Origin: a virus
DNA length: 20,022 nucleotides
Direction: 5' to 3' (one strand)
Virus record (IMG/VR): IMGVR_UViG_3300006919_000638
Coordinates: 1 to 20,022 of that record
Numbering within the stretch: position 1 is the first letter of the stretch; each line of letters begins with the position of its first letter. Of the stretch, positions 3,229-17,261 are shown piece after piece. Under the pieces are notes generated by a model, which was not told the DNA's origin, searched no databases, and saw nothing but the letters and a program-made list of their open reading frames with translations. The position numbers were made by a program, and so were the translations under genes.

Positions 3229-5049
3229 TTATGCGTCATTAGCTGCGTCAGTGGTAAAGAACAGCTTGATGCCGAGCAGTCGAGCATCACCTGATTGGCT
3301 GTCTGCCGATACATCACGCATGATCTGAAAGTAAGTTTGTGTATCAACGGCAGCGTTGGCAATCGTTACTGCGCCAGACGTTGCCGATACAGTCATGTCA
3401 TTCGACGTTCCGCTAAAGGCTTTTGCCGTGGCAACCACGTTTGTACCAAAAGCGGTATTGATGCTTGCGTCATCTGCAATACAAACGCCCGATAAGCCCC
3501 AAGCAACTGTACCTGTATTGGTGCCTGTAACCGTCCAGAACGCCTGAAATGTCACTGTGCCTTCGTTCCAAGACTTAGGAAAACACACGGTAAACTGAGC
3601 GTTCTCATCAGAGCTTGCGTCAAAGTCCAAGCACTTGAGTTCTGGCCCGTTGGATAGTTCCACCTGCTCCAAGTCGGCACAACCGTTTGTGCTGTTGGGG
3701 TACATCGCAGCGGCAGGTACATAGATCGTTTCGGTTCCTGCAACCTTAGCTTTTGCCCCGCCGACATCAAGGGCACCCGCTATCGCTACGTTTGTTGTGC
3801 CCGTTGGGATTTCGATTACGTCAGCGTCAGCATCGTTTTTGATCGTGACATCGTTTGTGCTGCCTTGACCCGTGAGGATCAAGCCCTCTGCTGCTGTATA
3901 GCCTATCGCAGCGTTATCTCCAGCGGCTGTATCGCCATCAGCGTTTAACGTACCCGCAGTAAGATCTCCAACAATATCTACGTTGGTGGTGCCTGTAGGG
4001 ATCGTTAGCACAGTCCCGTCGGCGTCGTTCTTTAACGTGACATCTGACGTTGAGCCTTGCCCAGTTACAATGATCCCTTCCGCACTTGTAAAACCAAGCG
4101 CAGCAGTATCCCCAGCAGATGTATCGCCTGTTATGGTTGGCGTATCAAGAGTCTTATTCGTAAGCGTCTGCGTAGCTGCAATACCTGCCAAAGTGTCAGT
4201 AGACGCAGGTAGCGTTAGGGTTACATTGCCAGAAAATTCACTGTGCGCGGGAGCTTGAATCTGTGCGTAGTGCGCGTTAGAGCTTTCACAGTAAAACTTG
4301 ATCGTGGACTGCGTACCGCCATTCTTAATAGCAATGTCGCCTTGACTAATAACAACGCCGTTGGTTGCGTCTCCAGCTACACCAAGGGTTCCAGCAATCG
4401 TTGCGTTTGTCGTACCAGTTGGCACCTGCAAGACAGCGGCATCTGCGTCATTCTTAATCGTTACATCGTTAGTAGATCCCTGCCCCGTAAGGATGAGTCC
4501 CTCTGCGGAAGTAAACCCCATTGCAGCATTGTCGCCAGACGAAGTATCTCCAGTCGCTTCGACAGTAGCCCCTGTGATTACGCCAGAGGCAGTCAGTGCC
4601 GCTACAGTTGTTGTGCCAGTAAGATCAAGATCTACCAAGGCATCAACTATCGCAGCGCCTGATCCAGCGCCATCTGAATAGACTGCTTTGGTCTGACCAG
4701 TAGGGATTGTGACATTCGCACCAGAGCCTTGACTGATGATGATGCTCTGTGACCCGCTGGTAGCATTCTCAATGAACCACAGCTTACTGACCGTGTTTGG
4801 CCCTATCGTGATCGTGCAAGTGCTATCTAGGGTGCCAGTATACTTGAGGAACAGCGACCGGCCCGGATCAGTAGAACCATCAGCTATCGTCGTGGTGTGG
4901 GTGTCTGCATTCGTCGTGATCGCTTCTGTGCCAAACGAAAATGCCTCTGCAATCAACTCAAGGTTGGTATTCGTACTGGTGCCCCAGGTACCTGCCTCAT
5001 CGCCGGTAGATATCTCTTTGAGCCGTAAATCGTTAACGTAAGTTGCCAT
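3229..5049 (-). CDS. Repeat-containing tail fibre protein
   Basis: A 606-residue fibre-type protein. Residues 1-140 (MATYVNDLRLKEISTGDEAGTWG onward) form the conserved N-terminal part that I recall as the virion-attachment end in marine phage fibres. Residues 140-430 form a Thr/Gly/Ala/Asp-rich shaft containing three 54-residue repeats and, between the first and second, a segment with the common fibre motif LPASTDTLAG..ATQTLTNKTLDTP. Residues 430-606 form a separate C-terminal beta-rich domain (YVPAAAMYPNSTNG, FPKSWNEGTVTFQAFW, MRDVSADSQSGDARLLGIKLFF), probably the receptor-binding or trimerising head. GGAG is seven bases before the ATG. Gly/Ala/Thr richness, few charged clusters and shaft repeats are typical for trimeric fibres. 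The Gly-rich adhesin follows immediately, so both likely act in adsorption. Confidence 0.88.
   Translation of the reverse strand: MATYVNDLRLKEISTGDEAGTWGTSTNTNLELIAEAFSFGTEAITTNADTHTTTIADGSTDPGRSLFLKYTGTLDSTCTITIGPNTVSKLWFIENATSGSQSIIISQGSGANVTIPTGQTKAVYSDGAGSGAAIVDALVDLDLTGTTTVAALTASGVITGATVEATGDTSSGDNAAMGFTSAEGLILTGQGSTNDVTIKNDADAAVLQVPTGTTNATIAGTLGVAGDATNGVVISQGDIAIKNGGTQSTIKFYCESSNAHYAQIQAPAHSEFSGNVTLTLPASTDTLAGIAATQTLTNKTLDTPTITGDTSAGDTAALGFTSAEGIIVTGQGSTSDVTLKNDADGTVLTIPTGTTNVDIVGDLTAGTLNADGDTAAGDNAAIGYTAAEGLILTGQGSTNDVTIKNDADADVIEIPTGTTNVAIAGALDVGGAKAKVAGTETIYVPAAAMYPNSTNGCADLEQVELSNGPELKCLDFDASSDENAQFTVCFPKSWNEGTVTFQAFWTVTGTNTGTVAWGLSGVCIADDASINTAFGTNVVATAKAFSGTSNDMTVSATSGAVTIANAAVDTQTYFQIMRDVSADSQSGDARLLGIKLFFTTDAANDA
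3775..3936 (-). repeat. Tail fibre shaft repeat, third copy
   Basis: Encodes residues 372-425 of the fibre, starting GDTAAGDNAAIGYTAAEG and ending TTNVAIAG. It matches the two other 54-residue copies at most positions. Confidence 0.85.
3967..4128 (-). repeat. Tail fibre shaft repeat, second copy
   Basis: Encodes residues 308-361, starting GDTSAGDTAALGFTSAEG. It lies only ten residues before the third copy, while the first copy is 87 residues away. Confidence 0.85.
4390..4551 (-). repeat. Tail fibre shaft repeat, first copy
   Basis: Encodes residues 167-220, starting GDTSSGDNAAMGFTSAEG and containing LTGQGSTNDVTIKNDADA. The protein copies are closely similar while the DNA differs at many synonymous positions, so the duplication is not recent. 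Confidence 0.85.
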
Positions 5050-6155: not shown

Positions 6156-6791
6156 TTACCCCCTAGCAATATCGTATCTGAATTCATCTCTTGCTCCATA
6201 GCCTTCTCCAAGCTTCTTTAGCGCGGATACAGCAGACAAGAAACGTTGCTCATACTGAGCAGCTTCTTCAGGTATTTTCAAAAAAGTAGCCGCTTCAACT
6301 AGCGTGCCATACAACATGGCATCTGGCGCATTATCTGAAAGCCAGGTTGTGCTTGATCCTGACGTTGTTGTCAGAGATGCAGGACGATATTTGTAGTGCA
6401 GTTCATAGTCGTAATTAGCTGCAGGTGTAGGCGCCAAAATGAACGTGCTGTCATCAAACAAAGCATAATACTTTGTTGCCCCAGTCGTTGATGGATTTGG
6501 CGTGTAGTCTCTAATAAACGATACATGTTTGAACAATGGATAGGTGTAAACACTGTCGATGATCAGCGCCAAACTGTATGTGGCCAAGAAGTCTGTTGGC
6601 GTGCCTAGGTATGGAGAACTTGAAGTGCCGTTGCCTGTAACGTTCTTTCTGAACACAGGAAGCTCCACATTCTTCAATATGCGCTCTTCTGCCTCTTGGA
6701 TAAACGTATCTAGCTCGGCAACAAAAGTCGTTTCTGCAGTCTCACAGTAGTCCTGAACCGTAGATTTTAAGCTCGCTAATGTAAAACTCAT
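6156..6791 (-). CDS. Putative head-tail joining (tail adaptor/stopper) protein
   Basis: A 211-residue protein. The N-terminal 45 residues are helical (LKSTVQDYCETAETTFVAELDTFIQEAEERI), the middle is mixed beta (LPVFRKNVTGN, YLGTPTDFLATYSLAL), and a later part has LAPTPAANYDYELHYKYRPASLT. A helical end (AMLYGTLVEAATFLK..YEQRFLSAVSALKK) follows. This order, helix bundle, beta core, helices, occurs in connector or tail-completion proteins. I recall close relatives in marine phage genomes next to the same zinc-ribbon and connector genes. Its start overlaps the previous stop as ATGA. Function is inferred from position between connector and fibre genes. Confidence 0.82.
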   Translation of the reverse strand: MSFTLASLKSTVQDYCETAETTFVAELDTFIQEAEERILKNVELPVFRKNVTGNGTSSSPYLGTPTDFLATYSLALIIDSVYTYPLFKHVSFIRDYTPNPSTTGATKYYALFDDSTFILAPTPAANYDYELHYKYRPASLTTTSGSSTTWLSDNAPDAMLYGTLVEAATFLKIPEEAAQYEQRFLSAVSALKKLGEGYGARDEFRYDIARG

Positions 6792-7129
6792 GTTGTTACC
6801 ACCGTTACTGTTCCAATGGAGCCGGTTGCGCCATCAATGCTAAAGGCCGAGCCAATAGGGTCGCCAGTGATAGACATCATCTGGTTAGCATCAATGGTTC
6901 TAACAACGCCTTCACCAGCTACAGTGCTTGCCGCCCGATTCGGCCTAGCAAACCTCAAGCCCTCTGGATCAGAAACGTGCCTAGGCGGCTCTAGTTGAGG
7001 GTGTTTTGGTTCAAAGCATTCATTACAAACGCGGAACCCAGTCCACTCTTCTTTAAGTTCTGTGTATTTATACTGAAAGCCACATCTGTCGCAGATGGCA
7101 ATCGCATACTTGCCAGAAGCAAAGGCCAT
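6788..7129 (-). CDS. Zinc-ribbon protein of the head-tail gene set
   Basis: A 113-residue protein with two CxxC pairs, Cys13-Cys16 (CDRCG) and Cys35-Cys38 (CNEC), separated by KYTELKEEWTGFRV. This is a clear four-cysteine zinc ribbon. The motif end EPKHPQLEPPR is, as I recall, conserved in marine phage relatives. The C-terminal part (residues 65-113) is Gly/Thr/Val-rich and ends TGSIGTVTVVTT, similar to the repeat unit in the 99-residue protein at 5119-5418. Both ends overlap neighbours (TAATG and ATGA), so it is made together with the connector proteins. A structural rather than DNA-binding role is suggested by this context, but the sequence alone cannot decide. Confidence 0.87.
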   Translation of the reverse strand: MAFASGKYAIAICDRCGFQYKYTELKEEWTGFRVCNECFEPKHPQLEPPRHVSDPEGLRFARPNRAASTVAGEGVVRTIDANQMMSITGDPIGSAFSIDGATGSIGTVTVVTT

Positions 7130-7806
7130 TACGCTATCCTAGACCTCATGCTAGGCGCCACCATCAATGACGCTCTGCTTTGATCTTGATCCGCAGCCCG
7201 AGCAAACTCTTCATCGTACAAGGCTTTAAGCATCTGAACTCGATCAGGCGCCTTCTTCAAGGCTATGTAGTAAGACAGCCCTGCTGCCAGACATGGGTAA
7301 AACCTAAAAGGGACATCTACTGTGTTGACACCAGCGTCTGCGTCTTCAATACGAACCAGGCGGTTAATGATCAACTGGTCTGTAGAGTTTTCAGATGCAG
7401 GCCAAATATACAGCCTTGGCGTTATTTGTTTGTCTAGAAAGAATTGAGTCGGCCTAGATTGAGTGGATTTGTCGGGAAGATTCCAGTACTCAGACCGCCC
7501 GATCTGCTCCATAGCTATATCTGTCGTGTTGCTGCCGTCAGTTCGCCTAACAACAACATCAAGCACATCGATGGTAGTAGCCGTTAAATCAATAAACTCA
7601 TCGCCTTGAGATAGGGTGGTGGTACTATTGGTAACAGTCCACTGGTTTAACCCTCTGTTTGCCCAATCAGCAAACAAAAGATTGAGTGACCGTCTTGCGG
7701 TCACCCCATCGTAGCCAGTACGGTACTCAAGGCCGCATCGTTCAAATGCTTCCTCAACGTACTCCGCAACATCTGGCTCGAAATCAGAGCTTCCTGAGGT
7801 TGCCAT
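7129..7806 (-). CDS. Putative head-tail connector protein
   Basis: A 225-residue protein. The N-terminal part contains VAEYVEEAFERCGLEYRTGYDGVTARRSLNLL split around residues 13-45 and FADWANRGLNQWTV. It then has a beta-rich middle (DEFIDLTATTIDVLDVVVRR; PRLYIWPASENSTDQLIINR) and a helical end (AAGLSYYIALKKAPDRVQMLKALYDEEFARA). I recall this family as abundant in marine phages and placed just after capsid genes. The helical start with an ADWANRGL-type segment resembles P22 gp4-like and other connector proteins that bind the portal. It overlaps both neighbours by one base (TAATG). The connector call rests on position and general layout. Confidence 0.85.
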   Translation of the reverse strand: MATSGSSDFEPDVAEYVEEAFERCGLEYRTGYDGVTARRSLNLLFADWANRGLNQWTVTNSTTTLSQGDEFIDLTATTIDVLDVVVRRTDGSNTTDIAMEQIGRSEYWNLPDKSTQSRPTQFFLDKQITPRLYIWPASENSTDQLIINRLVRIEDADAGVNTVDVPFRFYPCLAAGLSYYIALKKAPDRVQMLKALYDEEFARAADQDQSRASLMVAPSMRSRIA

Positions 7807-8876: not shown

Positions 8877-8896
8877 ATTGTTCCATGTGGAACAAT
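8877..8896. other. parS-like palindrome / hairpin just after capsid stop
   Basis: Inverted repeat ATTGTTCC, ATGT, GGAACAAT. The core at 8879-8894, TGTTCCATGTGGAACA, differs at one position from the palindromic bacterial parS form TGTTCCACGTGGAACA. It starts within the capsid stop codon and precedes the terminator, so it could equally be an RNA hairpin protecting the capsid mRNA end. ParB binding is speculative. Confidence 0.5.
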
Positions 8897-9804
8897 TAAG
8901 CGCCTTGAGAACCAAACACGGCGCGTGGGTTACTGAAGCCGAAGCTGTAACGCTCACGGGCCTTGTAACGCACGTTGCCTGTGTCGAAATCACCTTCCAT
9001 AGAAGTTGAAATCGGGCTTCGCTCGAAGTGCTTGAACCCATCTGGGCAGTCGGTCTTAACAAACCAAGCATCAGTGTCAGTCAAGAAGTGGTTCACTGCA
9101 TAACCTTGCGGCAGCATGCCCATATTCCTGATTGCATTGATGTCGTTGTCAGCCGTACCTACTCGTCCGGGGGTGTCTAGAAGACGATCCGCCACAAACT
9201 GAAGCTGTGGTGGAACAATCAACTTAACGCCCTGCAGAGCCAAGATCATATTACGATCATCTACAAACGTAGAAATGCTGATTAAAGCATCTTCGAGTGA
9301 GGTTTCGTTCAGATCTGAGTAAGCACTTGGTCGGTTTGAGAACGTACCACCGCCAGCAAGGGGGTGTGCATCGTCAATCAACTCGACACCGTCGCCACCA
9401 GCAAAGCTAGAGTTGAACGCATTGTTCAAAACGTTAGCAGCTTTAACTTGCTTTGAGTGTGCCATGCTGCGCGCAAGAGCCTTCGTATAACGCGCACCGA
9501 GGCGGTCATACAAGTTGTCTTCCACTGCTTCCTCGGTCAACGCGAAAGCAAGCGCAACGGTTTCGTGAGTGTAACGAGAAGTGAAACCTTCAGACGCAGA
9601 ATCGTAACCGACACTTTGTCCTTCAGACTTATCACGAGCGTTACCAAAGCCTACGATCAGCACTTCTTCTTCAAACGCTCGGTCTGAAGATTCAGTTTCA
9701 AAGATCTCGGCGTGCTCGTTTTCATAACGAGCGTATTCCATGCCAAATAAAGCGTTGAGACCAGGCTCTAGCTCTTTGGCTAATTGTGCTCTTGAAATAG
9801 CCAT
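8896..9804 (-). CDS. Major capsid protein, Mu gpT-like
   Basis: A 302-residue protein expected to form the icosahedral shell (HK97-type fold). Recognisable segments include MAISRAQLAKELEPGLNALF at the start, then FALTEEAVEDNLYDRLGARY (about residues 88-107), a Lys/Asn-rich helix SKQVKAANVLNNAFN and LIVPPQLQFVADRLL. Near the end are DAWFVKTDCPDGFKHFER and VRYKARERYSFGF. The alternation of a long alpha spine-like segment and the NVRYKARERYSFGF end agrees with the Mu-type major head subunit as I remember it. AGGAGG seven bases ahead of ATG, overlapping the previous stop, predicts strong translation. Scaffold and GroES-like genes lie upstream and a strong terminator follows, as expected for the most expressed gene. 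Confidence 0.9.
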   Translation of the reverse strand: MAISRAQLAKELEPGLNALFGMEYARYENEHAEIFETESSDRAFEEEVLIVGFGNARDKSEGQSVGYDSASEGFTSRYTHETVALAFALTEEAVEDNLYDRLGARYTKALARSMAHSKQVKAANVLNNAFNSSFAGGDGVELIDDAHPLAGGGTFSNRPSAYSDLNETSLEDALISISTFVDDRNMILALQGVKLIVPPQLQFVADRLLDTPGRVGTADNDINAIRNMGMLPQGYAVNHFLTDTDAWFVKTDCPDGFKHFERSPISTSMEGDFDTGNVRYKARERYSFGFSNPRAVFGSQGA

Positions 9805-9815
9805 TAGTTAGCCTC

Positions 9816-10400
9816 CTATGCTAAACCGGCGCCTTTTTGGCCGTAAATTGAGTTCTGAATAACAACAAGAACGTTGGTATTCGCCGTAGCAACATCTGAG
9901 TTTTCTGGGTCGCCAGAAATATCAATTGCTTTAATTGGCAGGCCTGCCGTGGTTGCACCCGTGGTCACATCTAGCTCAGCGCCAGAAATGCCAGTTACAG
10001 TGCTTCCAGAACTGGTGTACACAATATCGAAGTTACCGAACAAGTCGGCAATCGGGAACGTGTCATCAGCCTGGATTTCGTACACAACATTCGGATCATC
10101 AATGATAAAAGCAATGATGTCTGAAGCATTAGTACTTGCAGGATAGAAGTTGCTGTAAACCTGTTCCTTAGTAGTAGGATCGGTGTACTGACAACCGTTG
10201 AACACACCAACGATAGGCACAGTGCCTCCGTCAGCGTGGACCTCTACCGTACCACCAGTAACCTGGGCAACCATATCTCCTTGGAAGATAGCAGTTCCAT
10301 AGTTAGCAGCGATCCGATATCGGCTTTGTCCACCAGTATAGGGGGCACCGCCCACCATACGCACTGGACGCATTCCAAAAGCGGCATCTTGGTTCGCCAT
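9816..10400 (-). CDS. Structural virion protein encoded before the capsid protein
   Basis: A 194-residue protein from ATG 10400, chosen because TAGGAG (10408-10413) lies seven bases upstream. The frame opens eight codons earlier, but that start would exclude this site. It begins MANQDAAFGMRPVRMVGG, followed by YRIAANYGTAIFQGDMV, VGVFNGCQYTDPTTKEQVY, and YPASTNASDIIAFIIDDPN. The rest is Thr/Gly-rich beta sequence ending in VVIQNSIYGQKGAGLA. I recall close relatives as a standard neighbour of marine phage capsid genes. No scaffold-like charge pattern or enzyme motif is present. A second shell or stabilising protein is the likely role. Confidence 0.87.
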   Translation of the reverse strand: MANQDAAFGMRPVRMVGGAPYTGGQSRYRIAANYGTAIFQGDMVAQVTGGTVEVHADGGTVPIVGVFNGCQYTDPTTKEQVYSNFYPASTNASDIIAFIIDDPNVVYEIQADDTFPIADLFGNFDIVYTSSGSTVTGISGAELDVTTGATTAGLPIKAIDISGDPENSDVATANTNVLVVIQNSIYGQKGAGLA

Positions 10401-10436
10401 TTGGGATCTCCTAGTTAAACACAATCAAAAATGAGG

Positions 10437-10904
10437 TCATTTCTTCCCTCGGCCAAATGATACCTGCGTCTTTCTCTCGTTAGAGATTGGCATAGCAGGG
10501 TGCTCATCTTTCATAAGATCGTTATCAACAGCATGCATCTGTTGATCCGTTTGCTTAGCAAAATAAGCATTTCTTTCTTCAACCGTTTCTTCTGGGATTT
10601 TTGCAAGCATCAATCCGCCAACACCCACAGTGCCGGTATGGTTGCCTTCGTCAATGACGGGCAAGTCATAGCCTGCGATTTCTTCAGGACGTACAGGTTC
10701 GTACCCCTCACGAAATCTCATGTGAACATTGGTCTTGTCTGCTTCCCCACGAATATGGGTTCGCAGCCATCGATACTTCATCCCCGGAGGCGGTTCAGGA
10801 GTTTCCAACGCTTGAGGCGGCTTCCATGGTTTACGGGCAGCTTTAGCCTCTCGGCTTCCACTGCTTCTTGGCGTTCTATTAGAACCCTTTATTTCGTCAC
10901 TCAT
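10437..10904 (-). CDS. Conserved phage protein with PPPGMKYRW motif
   Basis: A 155-residue protein. The first 40 residues are basic and Pro-rich, likely disordered (SREAKAARKPWKPPQ). A conserved-looking core follows: GMKYRWLRTHIRGEADKTN (residues 41-59), MRFREGYEPVRPEEI, GTVGVGGLMLAKIPEETVEERN, then AVDNDLMKDEHPAMPI and a basic end VSFGRGKK. I recall this family between scaffold and capsid genes in marine phages, always unnamed. Its ATG overlaps the scaffold stop as ATGA, so the two are co-translated and may be needed in similar amounts. A capsid-assembly role is inferred from context only. Confidence 0.85.
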   Translation of the reverse strand: MSDEIKGSNRTPRSSGSREAKAARKPWKPPQALETPEPPPGMKYRWLRTHIRGEADKTNVHMRFREGYEPVRPEEIAGYDLPVIDEGNHTGTVGVGGLMLAKIPEETVEERNAYFAKQTDQQMHAVDNDLMKDEHPAMPISNERKTQVSFGRGKK

Positions 10905-11977
10905 GATCGTTGTAGCCTCATTTTCTGTTTTGCGTATTCTTTGAACGGTACTCCAAGCTTCCTAGCTAATGCTTGTTCACTTGTTGTCAGTTCAACTCTA
11001 CGAGAGTTTTGATTGCGTCCAGTTCCAGTCGTGCGCGATCCAGAGACAACAGTTTGGACGGGTTGTTGGTTGTCTCCCGCGTTAGTTTGCTCGTTAAATT
11101 TATGCGGCAGTTCTTGCCTCATACGAGAATCAATTTGAGCGTAGTATTCATCAGATTCTAAGTCAACACCGCTCTGTATTAAGTCGTTGTGTATGGCGAA
11201 AGCCACATTGGTCATGACAGTGTCCGTGCCGAACCATTCGTTTGCAGAAGCCCAGTCTTGGGCCTTAGCTGATGGCTCTTGATATGCAGGCTCTTCTTGG
11301 TAAACAGGCTGTTGCTGAGCAAGCTCTTGCTCTGCCTGCATATTAGCTTCTTGCTGCTCAAGCCAGTTTGCGTAATCAACTTTGTATTTCTCAAGATCTC
11401 TTTGATACTGAGAAAGCGCATTACGATCCGCTTCTGCCCTAGCCAAAAGCTGTTGAGCCTCGGCCATAGCGTCAGGGTCGCCAGACTCATACGCAGTTTT
11501 AAGATTGCGTTTAGCTGCTTCAGCTTGAGTTTCCACACGATTAGCAAACTCGTTGCTATACGTTTCCTGCATCTTCAAGTTTTGCTCAGCAGTAGACGTT
11601 TGAGTGCTTTGCAGTTGAGAAGCTAGTTCCTCATTCTGTTGCTTCAACTCTTTCGCGTACTGAAGCGCCTGCAACTCTCTGCGCTGAAAGTCTTTTGCTT
11701 GGCCAACAGCCTTGTTGATGCGCTCTTGTGCAGAACGAGCACGCCTTTCGGCCTCCGTAAGCTCTGGCTCTGCATCAGTATCAGGCGACTCAAACTCTTC
11801 ACGAACAGAGTCTTCAGTAACCGGCGCAATGGATTCAGCTTCTTCTTCAGAGAACTCAATGTAAGTAGGTTCTTCCTGAACCTCTTCTTCAACACGCTTG
11901 TGTTCGGGAAGCGCAGCCTTGTTTATGTTGTCATCGTCAAGCTTTGATAAAGCTTCAGTCAATGTTTCTTCCGACAT
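10901..11977 (-). CDS. Capsid scaffolding protein
   Basis: A 358-residue protein that should guide procapsid assembly and then leave the shell. Residues 1-85 are very acidic (EEEVQEEPTYIEFSEEEAES). Residues 85-220 form a long Gln/Glu/Ala-rich coiled coil, and residues 220-245 a Gln/Glu/Pro linker. A compact part follows with WASANEWFGTDTVMTNVAFAI (about residues 248-268) and SDEYYAQIDSRMRQELPHKF. The C-terminal end is LTTSEQALARKLGVPFKEYAKQKMRLQRS, basic and helical, the usual coat-binding end of scaffolds. Its position, two genes upstream of the capsid gene and directly after the co-chaperonin, supports the call. AGGTGA lies six bases ahead of the ATG. Confidence 0.85.
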   Translation of the reverse strand: MSEETLTEALSKLDDDNINKAALPEHKRVEEEVQEEPTYIEFSEEEAESIAPVTEDSVREEFESPDTDAEPELTEAERRARSAQERINKAVGQAKDFQRRELQALQYAKELKQQNEELASQLQSTQTSTAEQNLKMQETYSNEFANRVETQAEAAKRNLKTAYESGDPDAMAEAQQLLARAEADRNALSQYQRDLEKYKVDYANWLEQQEANMQAEQELAQQQPVYQEEPAYQEPSAKAQDWASANEWFGTDTVMTNVAFAIHNDLIQSGVDLESDEYYAQIDSRMRQELPHKFNEQTNAGDNQQPVQTVVSGSRTTGTGRNQNSRRVELTTSEQALARKLGVPFKEYAKQKMRLQRS

Positions 11978-11987
11978 GTCATTTCAC

Positions 11988-12431
11988 CTATGCAGACTTA
12001 ATATCGTCTGGGTTAAGAATGGTTCCAATCACTTCATCGTCATTAATGATTCGCACTTCATGGTCATCCTCAAGGGAGAACCTAGCACCGGCATAACGAC
12101 CAATAAGCACCCAATCACCGACTTCACACCATGGGTCATCACCAAACTTCTCGTAGTCCTGATAGGCAAGCGGGCCCATTTTCATGACATAACAAACAGA
12201 AGTGGCAAGGTTTTCCTTGTCGAGCGTTGATTGGATTAACTGTATACCGCCTTCTGTCATGCCCTTCCCTTTGTAAGGAAGTACTAACAAACGATAGCCA
12301 GTTGGAGTTGGCATTCTTTCAACCAAAGACTTGTCTAGCACAGACGGGTCTAAGACCCGATTTTCTTCATTCACATATGCATCCGTAACGGACGGTTTTG
12401 ATGCGATGGAATCTAATAATAGATCACTCAT
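11988..12431 (-). CDS. GroES-like co-chaperonin
   Basis: Predicted phage-encoded Cpn10, partner of the host GroEL for folding capsid proteins. From ATG 12431 it has 147 residues, about 50 more than bacterial GroES, with an N-terminal extension (residues 1-39) of unknown use. The Cpn10 part has PTPTGYRLLVLPYKGKG, then the mobile-loop region with GGIQL at residues 61-65, corresponding to the hydrophobic tripeptide that contacts GroEL. This is followed by VMKMGPLAYQDYEKF, EVGDWVLIGRYAGARF and a VRIINDDEVIGTILNPDDI end. A TTG start six codons earlier is possible, but AAGGAG (12441-12446) nine bases before the ATG decides for 12431. It overlaps the previous gene as ATGAGTGA and lies just before the scaffold. 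Comparable roles are known for T4 gp31. Confidence 0.88.
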   Translation of the reverse strand: MSDLLLDSIASKPSVTDAYVNEENRVLDPSVLDKSLVERMPTPTGYRLLVLPYKGKGMTEGGIQLIQSTLDKENLATSVCYVMKMGPLAYQDYEKFGDDPWCEVGDWVLIGRYAGARFSLEDDHEVRIINDDEVIGTILNPDDIKSA

Positions 12432-12624
12432 CGAGGGGATCTCCTTCAATATGCAACGCTTCTTTCAGTTCATCACGAAGGGTGCGAAGCATTGATAACT
12501 CACCCATCGCAAATTTGTAGTCCTCCATATCCTTGATATTACCAGAGGTTATATAATCAACATGAGACTGCTCATATTGATCTAGTTTTTTGTAGATGTA
12601 GGCCGCGAGAGATATTGAATCCAT
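12424..12624 (-). CDS. Small helical protein
   Basis: A 66-residue protein, probably all helical: AAYIYKKLDQYEQSHVDYI, then SGNIKDMEDYKFAMGELSMLRTLRDELKEAL. The pattern of a short first helix, SG.IKD..DYK...GEL..L, and a final helix occurs, as I recall, in many marine phage small proteins located between portal and scaffold genes. It begins directly after the preceding stop (TAAATG) and its end overlaps the GroES start. It has no known function; a capsid or portal assembly factor is a reasonable guess. Confidence 0.82.
   Translation of the reverse strand: MDSISLAAYIYKKLDQYEQSHVDYITSGNIKDMEDYKFAMGELSMLRTLRDELKEALHIEGDPLDE
12441..12446 (-). promoter_or_regulatory. Ribosome binding site setting the co-chaperonin start
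   Basis: AAGGAG on the minus strand, nine bases ahead of ATG 12431. It lies inside the frame extension that would begin at TTG 12449, so the longer form is unlikely. Confidence 0.7.
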
Positions 12625-14010: not shown

Positions 14011-16557
14011 CTATCGATTACCGAAAAATTCTTTCGCCACGTTTTCTGCAGTTTTAGCCATTTGAGCAGATTTCTGCAAGTCGATTCTTTCCCTTGCAAC
14101 ACTATCTTTCATTTCAGCCAACTCGCGCTGTAAGTCCATGCGCTCATCAGCCATGTCGGCAGTGTTATCAATTCGCTCACTTTCCAGCTTAATTCTTCGA
14201 TCAGCTTCCTCAGCTTTGCGCTGCAGATCCGCTTCTTTGATATCAAGCTCACGATCACGCAGATTAACCAGCGGGTCATCTTGTTGTGTCGGTGCAAGCT
14301 CTGGCGCCATCGCCTCAGTCAACTGCATAGAAATCTGTGCGACCTTGTCTTCCATGATCACCTGCATCTGCTGTTGCATCTGCTGCATTTGCATCTGAAC
14401 CTGTTGCATCATCATCGGATCCATCTGAGCTTGCTGCTGAGTCTGCTGCATCTGTTGCTGCATCTGTTGAATCTCAGGGTCTTGCTGAGCCATCTCACGC
14501 GCTTTGAAATCAATGTGCTGATAAATGTGCGCTTGAATCATCGACATGCCCTGCTGTTGACCAGGAGGCGCTGCAGAAATAAGCGGTGTTTTTAATAACG
14601 CAATGTGCGAATCAATGTGAGCATCGTGATCTTGTTGAGCAAACGCCTGTGCAGGCTGCATCTGCAAGAACCCAGAGTTCTCGATTGCTGGTGACACAGG
14701 CTGTGGCTGTGGTGGTGGTGGCAACAACTGCTCAATCTGCTGCACACCCATCGCCTCGTACATACGGCGATACGCCTCGTACATGCCTTGTGGCCCATGG
14801 ATCTGCGGGTTCGACTGGACCATTTGCATCATCTCTTGAGCGAGCATAACGCGCTGGCTCATGGAGAATATGTTCGGGTCAGACACAGGAATGATGTCGA
14901 TACGATCATCAAAGTCCTGTGCCAACAACTGCTGCTGCCCACTAGCGATCTGGTATGGATACGCCTTGATCGGTGACTCTTTGATCACTCGTGCAAGTAT
15001 GTTGAACTCCACACGCTGGCTGTAATGCATTCGCTTGTGTATCGCGCTCATCACTCGGCTACCGCGCTCAAGCAACGCAATCGTTGTGCCTACAGGCGCC
15101 TCTTGGTTGCCATCACCAATCTGCATATCACCAACAGAAGCGAAACGACGGCCTGCGTCAACCAACATGCCCAGCAACTGCAAGAGTGTGCCGCTTGGCT
15201 CTTTAAACGGCAGAGGCATCAACGCATCGCGCAATGACCCGCCAGGCGCATCCATGTCTCTGAACTCACCAGGTTGCAATGGAACATCGTTGTCTCGGAT
15301 ACGAATGCCACGAGCCTTAAATCCTGCAGGCAAGTTCGCCAACGTACCGGCATCAATCAACTGACGCAGAATAGAAGTGGCCGCTTGAGACAAGCCACCA
15401 ATCATGTGGGTCAGACCAAAACCGTAAAAACCAACACCTGGCAGAAACTTATAGTGAACAAAATAGTCAATGCGACGGCGCATAGCATCGTCTTGCTTGT
15501 AGTTCCTGCGAACAGAAAGGATAGTGCTCTGCTTCGGTAGTAGCGTGACGATGTACGGTAGTTTGATACCCGTTTCTTCGCCTTGAGCATCGACATCTTC
15601 AAACCCTGGAATGTCCAACTCAACATGAACCTCCATAACCTCGGCGTCGTAATCGTTTGAGCTACCAGATGGCTTAACGCCTTGTAGTTCATCAATCTCT
15701 TCCTCAATGTCACTAGCTGAATATGTCGAGTCATCAGACTCGCCACTGACCTTTGTCTTGCGATAAAAACCAGCCTGCTGAAGCTTGCGAACCTCGTTCA
15801 TCGACATGTCAATTACATGCGTGATACGAACCGCATCATCAAGACTCGTAGTGCCATAAGGCACAATCAGTTTCTCAGACGGGATGAAACGCGATACAGG
15901 ACGGCCTAGCGACTGATCAAAGTGAACCTTACGAAACGCACTGCCAGACAAAGGCAAATAGAAAAGTAGTTGGTCTGTCTCAGGATCGTATTCTTTCATC
16001 TCCTGAGTGATCAGATAGTTCATGAACTCCTGCACACGAGCAGCCTGAAGGTCAGTCTGGGGCGTGCCCATACCCATGACCATCGTCTTAACAGGCCCAC
16101 CAGAAGGCAACATCTCTTTGTAAGCTTGTGCTTGAAACTGCGTGACAGACTCAGCCAAGAGGGGGTGAATGACGCCAGAAGCCCCGTCAAAGGGTTCTGT
16201 GCGATCTTCAAACTTCATACCTAAGAACTTCAAGCCCTCGGTGTACTGATCAATCCACTCTTTGCGCGATGACTTATCGTCATCAATATCACCCATCAAG
16301 TCAGAGTAGATTCGACCTAGATCCGCTTGATCAATAACCTCTGCAAGGTTGGCGTCAAACGCAAGAGGAGCCTCCATATCAAGATCGCCTTCACCAAAGA
16401 CCATGGTGCCATCGTCCATCATCATGGCATCTTCATCGTCCATGTCATCAAACATCAGGTCTTCATCAGAACCCTCAGAAAGCTGAATCTCTTTTGAACT
16501 GTTTTCGATATCAAGTTCATCGATATCAACGTCATCTACACCGCGCTCTATAGCCAT
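14011..16557 (-). CDS. Portal protein
   Basis: An 848-residue protein expected to form the dodecameric ring at the DNA-packaging vertex. Residues 1-70 are strikingly acidic (EDAMMMDDG and similar). The core, about 70-640, has motifs that I associate with P22-like and marine phage portals: RKEWIDQYTEGLKFLGM, PFDGASGVIHPLLAESVTQF, FYLPLSGSAFRKVHFDQ, FIPSEKLIVPYG, ITHVIDMSMNEVRKLQQAGF, VHYKFLPGVGFYGFGLTHM and QLIDAGTLANLPAGFKARG. Residues 692-740 are a Gln/Met-rich tract, and 765-848 a charged coiled coil, as in the barrel or crown of long portals. It is larger than a usual siphovirus portal. It lies downstream of the terminase gene on the same transcript, which supports the packaging role. Confidence 0.92.
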   Translation of the reverse strand: MAIERGVDDVDIDELDIENSSKEIQLSEGSDEDLMFDDMDDEDAMMMDDGTMVFGEGDLDMEAPLAFDANLAEVIDQADLGRIYSDLMGDIDDDKSSRKEWIDQYTEGLKFLGMKFEDRTEPFDGASGVIHPLLAESVTQFQAQAYKEMLPSGGPVKTMVMGMGTPQTDLQAARVQEFMNYLITQEMKEYDPETDQLLFYLPLSGSAFRKVHFDQSLGRPVSRFIPSEKLIVPYGTTSLDDAVRITHVIDMSMNEVRKLQQAGFYRKTKVSGESDDSTYSASDIEEEIDELQGVKPSGSSNDYDAEVMEVHVELDIPGFEDVDAQGEETGIKLPYIVTLLPKQSTILSVRRNYKQDDAMRRRIDYFVHYKFLPGVGFYGFGLTHMIGGLSQAATSILRQLIDAGTLANLPAGFKARGIRIRDNDVPLQPGEFRDMDAPGGSLRDALMPLPFKEPSGTLLQLLGMLVDAGRRFASVGDMQIGDGNQEAPVGTTIALLERGSRVMSAIHKRMHYSQRVEFNILARVIKESPIKAYPYQIASGQQQLLAQDFDDRIDIIPVSDPNIFSMSQRVMLAQEMMQMVQSNPQIHGPQGMYEAYRRMYEAMGVQQIEQLLPPPPQPQPVSPAIENSGFLQMQPAQAFAQQDHDAHIDSHIALLKTPLISAAPPGQQQGMSMIQAHIYQHIDFKAREMAQQDPEIQQMQQQMQQTQQQAQMDPMMMQQVQMQMQQMQQQMQVIMEDKVAQISMQLTEAMAPELAPTQQDDPLVNLRDRELDIKEADLQRKAEEADRRIKLESERIDNTADMADERMDLQRELAEMKDSVARERIDLQKSAQMAKTAENVAKEFFGNR

Positions 16558-16580: not shown

Positions 16581-17261
16581 TCAGTCTTTGTCTGCGTACA
16601 GATTATCGAAGATACGGTTCACATCTAGCGTGTAATCCAAGTCCGACTTGCTGTAATGAATATGCTGTGACGGCCTAAAATCAGGGGCGCCATCACCAGT
16701 CTCAAACCACGCAGGATGCGTCACCCTCACCCTGTTGTTGGGCAAAGCTACTATATTCCCCGTCCACTCGCCAGCATCAAGTAACTCCATCACATGCGAT
16801 TGTTTGTGCTGTGCAGGATCATCAGCGATCTCATTCTCAGCATAATCCACAGTGAACAAGTACTTCGCGGGGTACATCTCCCCACCAATTTTGGCCATCC
16901 AGGGGCACGGCGTTGCGCGATCTAAAACGTATACAGCATGAGTGTGAGAAGAACAGTCCCAAGGCTGGGCATCATGTACCGCCATAGGGACTGGCCACTC
17001 CTCAAACGGCGTATCCGCAACCAAAGCAGTGATCGGCATTCTTGCCCACATGGCTCCACCATGAACATTCGGTTCGTCCTCATCATCGTCAGTTTCACAC
17101 CCAGTGAAAATGACCTGAAAACTGAGGCATCTCGTAGGCATCGTAGTTACAGCAATAACCATCGCGTGTAAAAACTCGCCATGGTATTTCTCGTGATTGT
17201 GTGTGTATTCCCGTCTCACCCACGCCTTAAAGTGCGGGATGTTACTTTGTAAGTATGGCAA
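16581..17261 (-). CDS. Conserved phage protein of unknown function, TTG start
   Basis: A 226-residue protein starting at TTG 17261, directly after the previous TAA. AAGGA (17272-17276) ten bases upstream supports this unusual start. The sequence is compact and rich in His, Trp, Cys and Met: IPHFKAWVRREYTHNHEKYH, LHAMVIAVTTMPTRCLSFQV, VHGGAMWARMPITALV, HDAQPWDCSSHTHAVYVLDR, PCPWMAKIGGEMYPAKYLF. I remember nearly the same sequence in many marine phage genomes next to terminase and portal genes, always unnamed. The clustered His and Cys residues could bind metal or form an active site, but no known fold is recognised. Its place between metallopeptidase and portal suggests a role in head morphogenesis. 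Confidence 0.87.
   Translation of the reverse strand: MPYLQSNIPHFKAWVRREYTHNHEKYHGEFLHAMVIAVTTMPTRCLSFQVIFTGCETDDDEDEPNVHGGAMWARMPITALVADTPFEEWPVPMAVHDAQPWDCSSHTHAVYVLDRATPCPWMAKIGGEMYPAKYLFTVDYAENEIADDPAQHKQSHVMELLDAGEWTGNIVALPNNRVRVTHPAWFETGDGAPDFRPSQHIHYSKSDLDYTLDVNRIFDNLYADKD

Follow-up and report, generated by a model that had tools for sequence, protein, structure and literature searches.

The 20,022 nucleotides of viral DNA analysed here (the window; IMG/VR record IMGVR_UViG_3300006919_000638) encode a member of the Cpn10/GroES family, an ordinary phage GroES, and in nearly all the relatives that we examined this Cpn10 accompanies the same head genes. From sequence comparisons and a structure model, we consider it likely that the protein acts as a phage-encoded lid for the GroEL of the host. 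This likelihood concerns the lid as a whole; a general-purpose GroES and a lid for another head protein, both weighed below, are sub-cases of it. The main client may be the major capsid protein, an assignment that we make only tentatively. A phage GroES beside head genes is a known and expected kind of phage gene. In the open-licence literature, we found no published account of a Cpn10 association across a whole capsid lineage or of the loop insert described below.

Identification of the GroES gene and its neighbours

The original prediction had located the gene exactly and left its strand unstated: it is on the minus strand (Table 1), where the ORF is intact, whereas the plus strand of the same interval is interrupted by stops. 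The start is the ATG at 12431, with AAGGAG 9 nt 5' of it, and the stop of the preceding gene overlaps this start codon (ATGA). A TTG at 12449 was set aside as a start, the ribosome-binding sequence belonging to the ATG at 12431. The Cpn10 signature and GGIQL mobile-loop motif that had been claimed for the protein are both present. The Pfam Cpn10 profile (PF00166) matches residues 42–138 with a narrow pass (22.1 bits, the cut-off being 21.1; E 1.5e-4), the PHROG search assigns the protein to phrog_3188 "co-chaperonin GroES" (51.8 bits, E 1.1e-13), and GGIQL occupies residues 61–65. The NCBIfam GroES models gave weak matches, far under their own cut-offs.

Residues 42–147 are under purifying selection, with a dN/dS of 0.068 over 109 of the 2,080 pairs formed by 65 GroES-side locus sequences, the other 1,971 pairs having been dropped as saturated or too close. 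A looser earlier run pointed in the same direction. Loci whose protein has no M start were excluded from the selection and dN/dS sets, and the window's own locus (L081) was left out of all selections and counts.

Table 1. Features of the GroES gene and of the head-gene neighbourhood in the window.
Feature	Coordinates	Strand	Size or codons	Basis
Portal protein	14011..16557	minus	848 aa, 95.5 kDa	Pfam SU10_portal, 33.5 bits; phrog_1216
Small upstream gene	12424..12624	minus	66 aa	phrog_32603 (function unannotated), E 8e-4
GroES/Cpn10 gene	11988..12431	minus	147 aa	Pfam, PHROG, predicted and solved structures
Variable low-confidence N-terminal tail	12360..12431	minus	codons 1–24	dN/dS 0.445; length differs among relatives
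Conserved proximal stub, RVLDPSVLDKSLVERMP	12309..12359	minus	codons 25–41	dN/dS 0.092, near the 0.068 of residues 42–147
Mobile loop with GGIQL and a 4-residue insertion in its C-terminal arm	12204..12275	minus	codons 53–76	lower pLDDT; length comparison
Roof segment between G86 and G105	12120..12173	minus	codons 87–104	18 residues
Putative scaffold, directly after GroES	10901..11977	minus	358 aa, 40.9 kDa	phrog_28737 (function unannotated)
Head-module gene	10437..10904	minus	155 aa	phrog_36003 (function unannotated)
Head-module gene	9816..10424	minus	~194–202 aa by start choice	phrog_37556 (function unannotated)
Major capsid protein	8896..9804	minus	302 aa, 33.1 kDa	Pfam Phage_capsid_4, 42.8 bits; phrog_371

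Read along the minus strand, the neighbourhood consists of the portal gene, small ORFs, GroES, a scaffold-like gene, two further genes, and the gene of the major capsid protein, which is 69.6% identical to the capsid protein of HTVC023P. This agrees with the earlier placement of GroES just ahead of scaffold and capsid genes, with the label "scaffold" given from position and predicted shape: the product would be a putative scaffold, and its model has long helices at residues 75–165 and 168–221 and an overall pTM of 0.35. Pfam, PHROG, and NCBIfam returned no function for this gene, and Pfam and PHROG returned none for the small gene upstream of GroES.

The minus strand also carries a sulfotransferase-family gene at 1133–2005 (Pfam Sulfotransfer_3, 61.1 bits), two SU10 adaptor family genes at 6156–6791 and 7129–7806 (82.2 and 33.3 bits), a gene adjoining that of the portal at 16581–17261 (phrog_3704 "ferredoxin", E 1.1e-27), and a gene at 3229–5049 for a 606 aa protein containing near-repeats of a motif like GQGSTNDVTIKNDADA. 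The last two had no Pfam match at E 0.01.

The predicted fold is that of a Cpn10

A single-chain model of the window GroES, computed from an alignment of 44 sequences, has a mean pLDDT of 72.7 and a pTM of 0.64. The barrel is confident, so one of the outcomes that the original prediction had named as refuting it, a structure prediction lacking a Cpn10 barrel, did not arise. The loop at about residues 53–76 is less certain, with pLDDT lowered in the blocks covering 51–80, an indirect hint that it is flexible. In a Foldseek search with this model, ranks 1–36 were all GroES, Cpn10, chloroplast co-chaperonin (7ekq), or T4 gp31, and 32 of these first 36 solved structures had an E of 0.001 or better. 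VIA-align placed 8wuc_a first (Z 10.0, 91 aligned residues, rmsd 2.7) and gave Z of 8.3 to 1aon_O and 8.1 to T4 gp31 (1g31_A); next after the Cpn10-type structures came oxidoreductases, at Z 6.6 and below. These oxidoreductases carry a GroES-like domain.

The closest known counterparts are phage proteins. The GroES of HTVC023P (gp36), HTVC027P (gp55), and DSL-LC04 occupy the same place as that of the window, between the portal and the scaffold and capsid genes, and measure 146–155 aa; they too have an N-terminal extension, of a different sequence. They are about 44–49% identical to the window protein, as against 15–26% for cellular Cpn10s in structural alignments, and on this ground we rejected a recent capture of a host groES. 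An uncultured-virus protein annotated as "Co-chaperonin GroES" (A0A221S4I5, 155 aa) is 52% identical to the window protein over 120 columns, with a TM-score of 0.71 by query length and a similar length.

GroES is described as a core gene of HTVC023P-type phages, for which the criterion given is a PolA similarity of at least 45% to cultured members (PMC9599517). The window record is a 20 kb fragment holding structural and packaging genes, with replication genes outside its view, and Pfam and PHROG identified no PolA within it. In another family of phages, the "Pervagoviridae", Cpn10 is likewise reported to be core (PMC8776804), and in siphovirus B8b a GroES was noted and a link to capsid or tail structure suggested (PMC4294664).

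The Cpn10 gene accompanies one capsid lineage

We examined the linkage from both sides. On the capsid side, a single query, the capsid protein of Alcaligenes phage QDWS535, retrieved 50 viral loci and thus sampled one branch of the lineage. Cpn10 is upstream on the same strand in 41 of them. The other nine are uninformative because their sequence ends too near the capsid ORF: they hold 0–1594 bases before it, and the shortest of the 41 holds 2517. The scaffold profile matches between Cpn10 and capsid in 40 of the 41 (in five of these, 295–1311 bases separate the two ORFs). Among the GroES-side loci, all 49 with at least 3.7 kb downstream have the scaffold gene next and the capsid gene after it; where less sequence follows, the scaffold gene is next in 22 of 22, and nine of the 80 loci were too short for judgement. 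The scaffold profile was made from the scaffold-like gene of the window and, for 12 phage records, from the gene coming after GroES; in those records "scaffold next" holds by definition, so the viral-contig counts alone test this order.

Annotated phages gave a similar picture. The capsid protein matches 21 records, and the 16 records matched by GroES are all among them; of the five that remain, four have annotated Cpn10 genes, and the fifth, MW202604, matches the Cpn10 profile. Exactly one Cpn10 was found in each of the 16 records searched whole. The five records outside that search (Pag-Yong1, Pra-JY27, GB2A, RLK, and KcrB) have match values equal to those of a searched record, and GroES matches are present in them. 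Cpn10 is located between the portal gene and the gene in scaffold position in 13 of the 16 records, and it is away from the head genes, yet retained, in MW202601, MW202604, and vir526, which argues against mere hitch-hiking. The lineage is represented by phages whose hosts are SAR11, a roseobacter, Caulobacter, cyanobacteria, and Alcaligenes, as well as by a virus assigned to a methanogen.

At the margins of the lineage, the family profile found no Cpn10 in MT836833, a fragment of 10.8 kb whose capsid protein is distant. Among eight loci with a capsid protein of the MW202601 type, a Cpn10 match was obtained only in a contig of 47.9 kb and in none of the other seven contigs, which are 4.7–14 kb long. 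PF00166 matched 11 of 12 large contigs, one under the cut-off, and missed the Cpn10 of L114, which the family profile found. Separately, a virus assigned to Methanomicrobiales (BK063670) encodes a Cpn10 (L090:1027-1383) upstream of a terminase and a distant relative of the capsid protein.

Over 117 loci (65 GroES-side, 12 phage records, and 40 capsid-side), Cpn10 distances correlate with those of the capsid protein (r 0.94). This carries little weight because co-inherited genes of any kind would correlate; scaffold distances correlate as well, at 0.86 with Cpn10 and 0.89 with the capsid protein.

A phage-encoded GroEL partner was considered and rejected: no Cpn60 was found in the 16 phage records, in the 12 large contigs, or in the 20 kb record of the window itself.

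The mobile loop is lengthened and the roof is retained

The original prediction had described a lengthened segment between loop and core. The lengthening is real, and small: four residues are added beside the mobile loop and about one in the roof. The stretch from P43 to G86 numbers 42 residues in the window protein; three cellular Cpn10s have 38 here, and T4 gp31 has 43. The span is at least 41 residues in 71 of 72 phage sequences (the window included; sequences containing X were excluded from the segment-length comparison), the exception being L127, with 27 residues and a start that was probably chosen wrongly. A 4-residue gap falls directly after the mobile loop in all seven printed cellular Cpn10 domains (five chains), and the table of matches for 11 solved bacterial sequences, with matching spans of 92–93 residues, gives no sign of the insert. 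From G86 to G105, the window protein has 18 residues and the three cellular Cpn10s 17–18, whereas T4 gp31 has 10. The window protein has the lengthened loop segment of the gp31 type and not its missing roof loop. In this comparison, the loop of the phage family is like that of gp31 and its roof like that of GroES. The alignment puts the extra loop residues of the window protein in the C-terminal arm, whereas those of gp31 are mostly in the N-terminal arm.

Longer loops also occur. Many of the Cpn10s fetched with the Alcaligenes-phage capsid protein have a loop segment of 49–51 residues, against 38 in the three cellular Cpn10s (e.g., L098:5368-5694, L113:1013-1357, and L146:4293-4637), and that of L119 has 62.

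The N-terminal extension is variable and missing from many relatives

About 40 extra N-terminal residues had been predicted, and this figure was borne out: the Cpn10 match begins at residue 41 with one profile and 42 with the other, which makes the extension about 41 residues long, and 42 residues precede the conserved P43. It has two parts (Table 1). The dN/dS values indicate that the tail is loosely constrained and the stub almost as constrained as the barrel. In the model, pLDDT is below 50 at residues 1–13 and 18–27, and a short helix lies at residues 34–39, within the stub. The tail is thus fast-evolving and probably disordered. Our guess is that the conserved stub packs at the edge of the barrel and that the tail is a flexible appendage.

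The number of residues before the equivalent of P43 ranges from 3 to 64 in the 72 phage sequences. It is 40–64 in the nearest relatives of the window (the GroES-side locus representatives), HTVC023P, HTVC027P, and DSL-LC04; 19–35 in MinM2, CRP-902, RW, MW202675, MW202545, and L142; and 3–15 in three phage records and in the remaining loci that the Alcaligenes phage capsid protein retrieved. Relatives that have neither tail nor stub keep the Cpn10 gene in the same position. The extension as a part of the mechanism is weakened because many relatives with the gene in this position have only 3–15 residues before the barrel, and it is inessential to the idea of a capsid-dedicated lid.

The extension does bear on the possibility that the Cpn10 fold now serves in structure or assembly, e.g., as a component of the prohead, and has lost its role as a GroEL lid. 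An appendage missing from the compared cellular Cpn10s, a divergent roof sequence, and the position among head genes would all suit such a part. Nevertheless, most members in an alignment of 26 from the phage family retain a GGI-L-like loop, the model makes this loop look flexible, and strong purifying selection acts on the barrel, although selection alone cannot separate a lid from a structural part. We regard such a change of role as very improbable.

A probable lid for host GroEL and its possible clients

In the mechanism that we propose, seven copies of the window GroES would form a lid, their GGIQL mobile loops would dock on host GroEL, and the closed chamber would fold a head protein from this gene cluster, the likeliest being the major capsid protein. 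The original prediction had suggested a dedicated chamber in which the capsid protein folds with host GroEL. What stands of it is the Cpn10 barrel with its flexible-looking, low-confidence mobile loop and the head-gene setting (41/41 informative capsid-side loci, 49/49 GroES-side loci with enough downstream sequence, and 13/16 records); a part for the N-terminal extension in the mechanism is weakened. A capsid-dedicated lid is plausible, and the fixed linkage adds support.

The known precedents are T4 gp31 and, grouped with it in the literature as a capsid co-chaperonin, RB49 CocO. Both gp31 and GroEL are reported to be required for folding the T4 capsid protein gp23, with GroES no substitute (PMC3012670). 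An enlargement of the chamber is attributed to gp31 (PMC3012670, PMC6318259), and the size argument made for this concerns the 56 kDa of gp23 (PMC6318259). gp31 and the window protein are both phage-encoded and share the Cpn10 fold and a loop segment of nearly equal length, whereas the roof and the ~41-residue extension set them apart, as do capsid proteins of 56 and 33 kDa. At 33.1 kDa, the capsid protein of the window is one to which the gp31/gp23 size argument does not transfer, and a larger chamber for it is not obviously needed. The cellular proteins compared (E. coli GroES, 1aon, and human mitochondrial Cpn10) have the barrel and mobile loop in common with the window protein, four fewer residues beside that loop, and no such N-terminal extension.

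The modest size of the capsid protein fits a general-purpose GroES, which would add lid capacity on host GroEL and serve a wide range of phage and host proteins, none of them a special client; the position among head genes would set only its timing. The barrel is close to those of cellular Cpn10s by Foldseek and VIA-align, the capsid protein would fit an ordinary chamber, and gp31 is described as able to substitute for GroES in general folding (PMC3012670, PMC6318259). What speaks against this general role is that the Cpn10 is tied in a fixed manner to a single capsid lineage (T4 alone among eight control phages gave a Cpn10 match, which is gp31) and that the loop segment is longer than that of the three cellular Cpn10s in 71 of the 72 phage sequences. 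We hold it to be possible but rather unlikely.

The lid could also serve another head protein: the portal, the scaffold, or the product of one of the two small genes. Portal homologues were found in 18 phage records, every one of which carries Cpn10, and the scaffold gene directly follows GroES. A protein of the size of the portal (95.5 kDa) is, on the other hand, too large for the closed GroEL chamber, and the capsid relationship persists in vir526 and the MW202601 records, where Cpn10 is apart from the head genes. Such a client seems to us unlikely, and the capsid protein remains the one that we tentatively prefer.

Implications for capsid co-chaperonins

These observations could fit a broader scenario, which we offer as speculation, possible rather than probable. 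One capsid lineage would depend on its own Cpn10 lid, keeping the gene even when it is away from the head genes, and its loop arm would have been lengthened separately from that of gp31. Capsid-dedicated lids would then have evolved more than once, and not through an oversized capsid protein. For the retooling of a cellular folding machine by a virus, T4 gp31 is the textbook case, and the way in which it is explained depends on a single large capsid protein. If the scenario is true, the "bigger chamber" explanation could be put to a direct test in a widespread lineage whose capsid protein is small and whose private lid is fixed.
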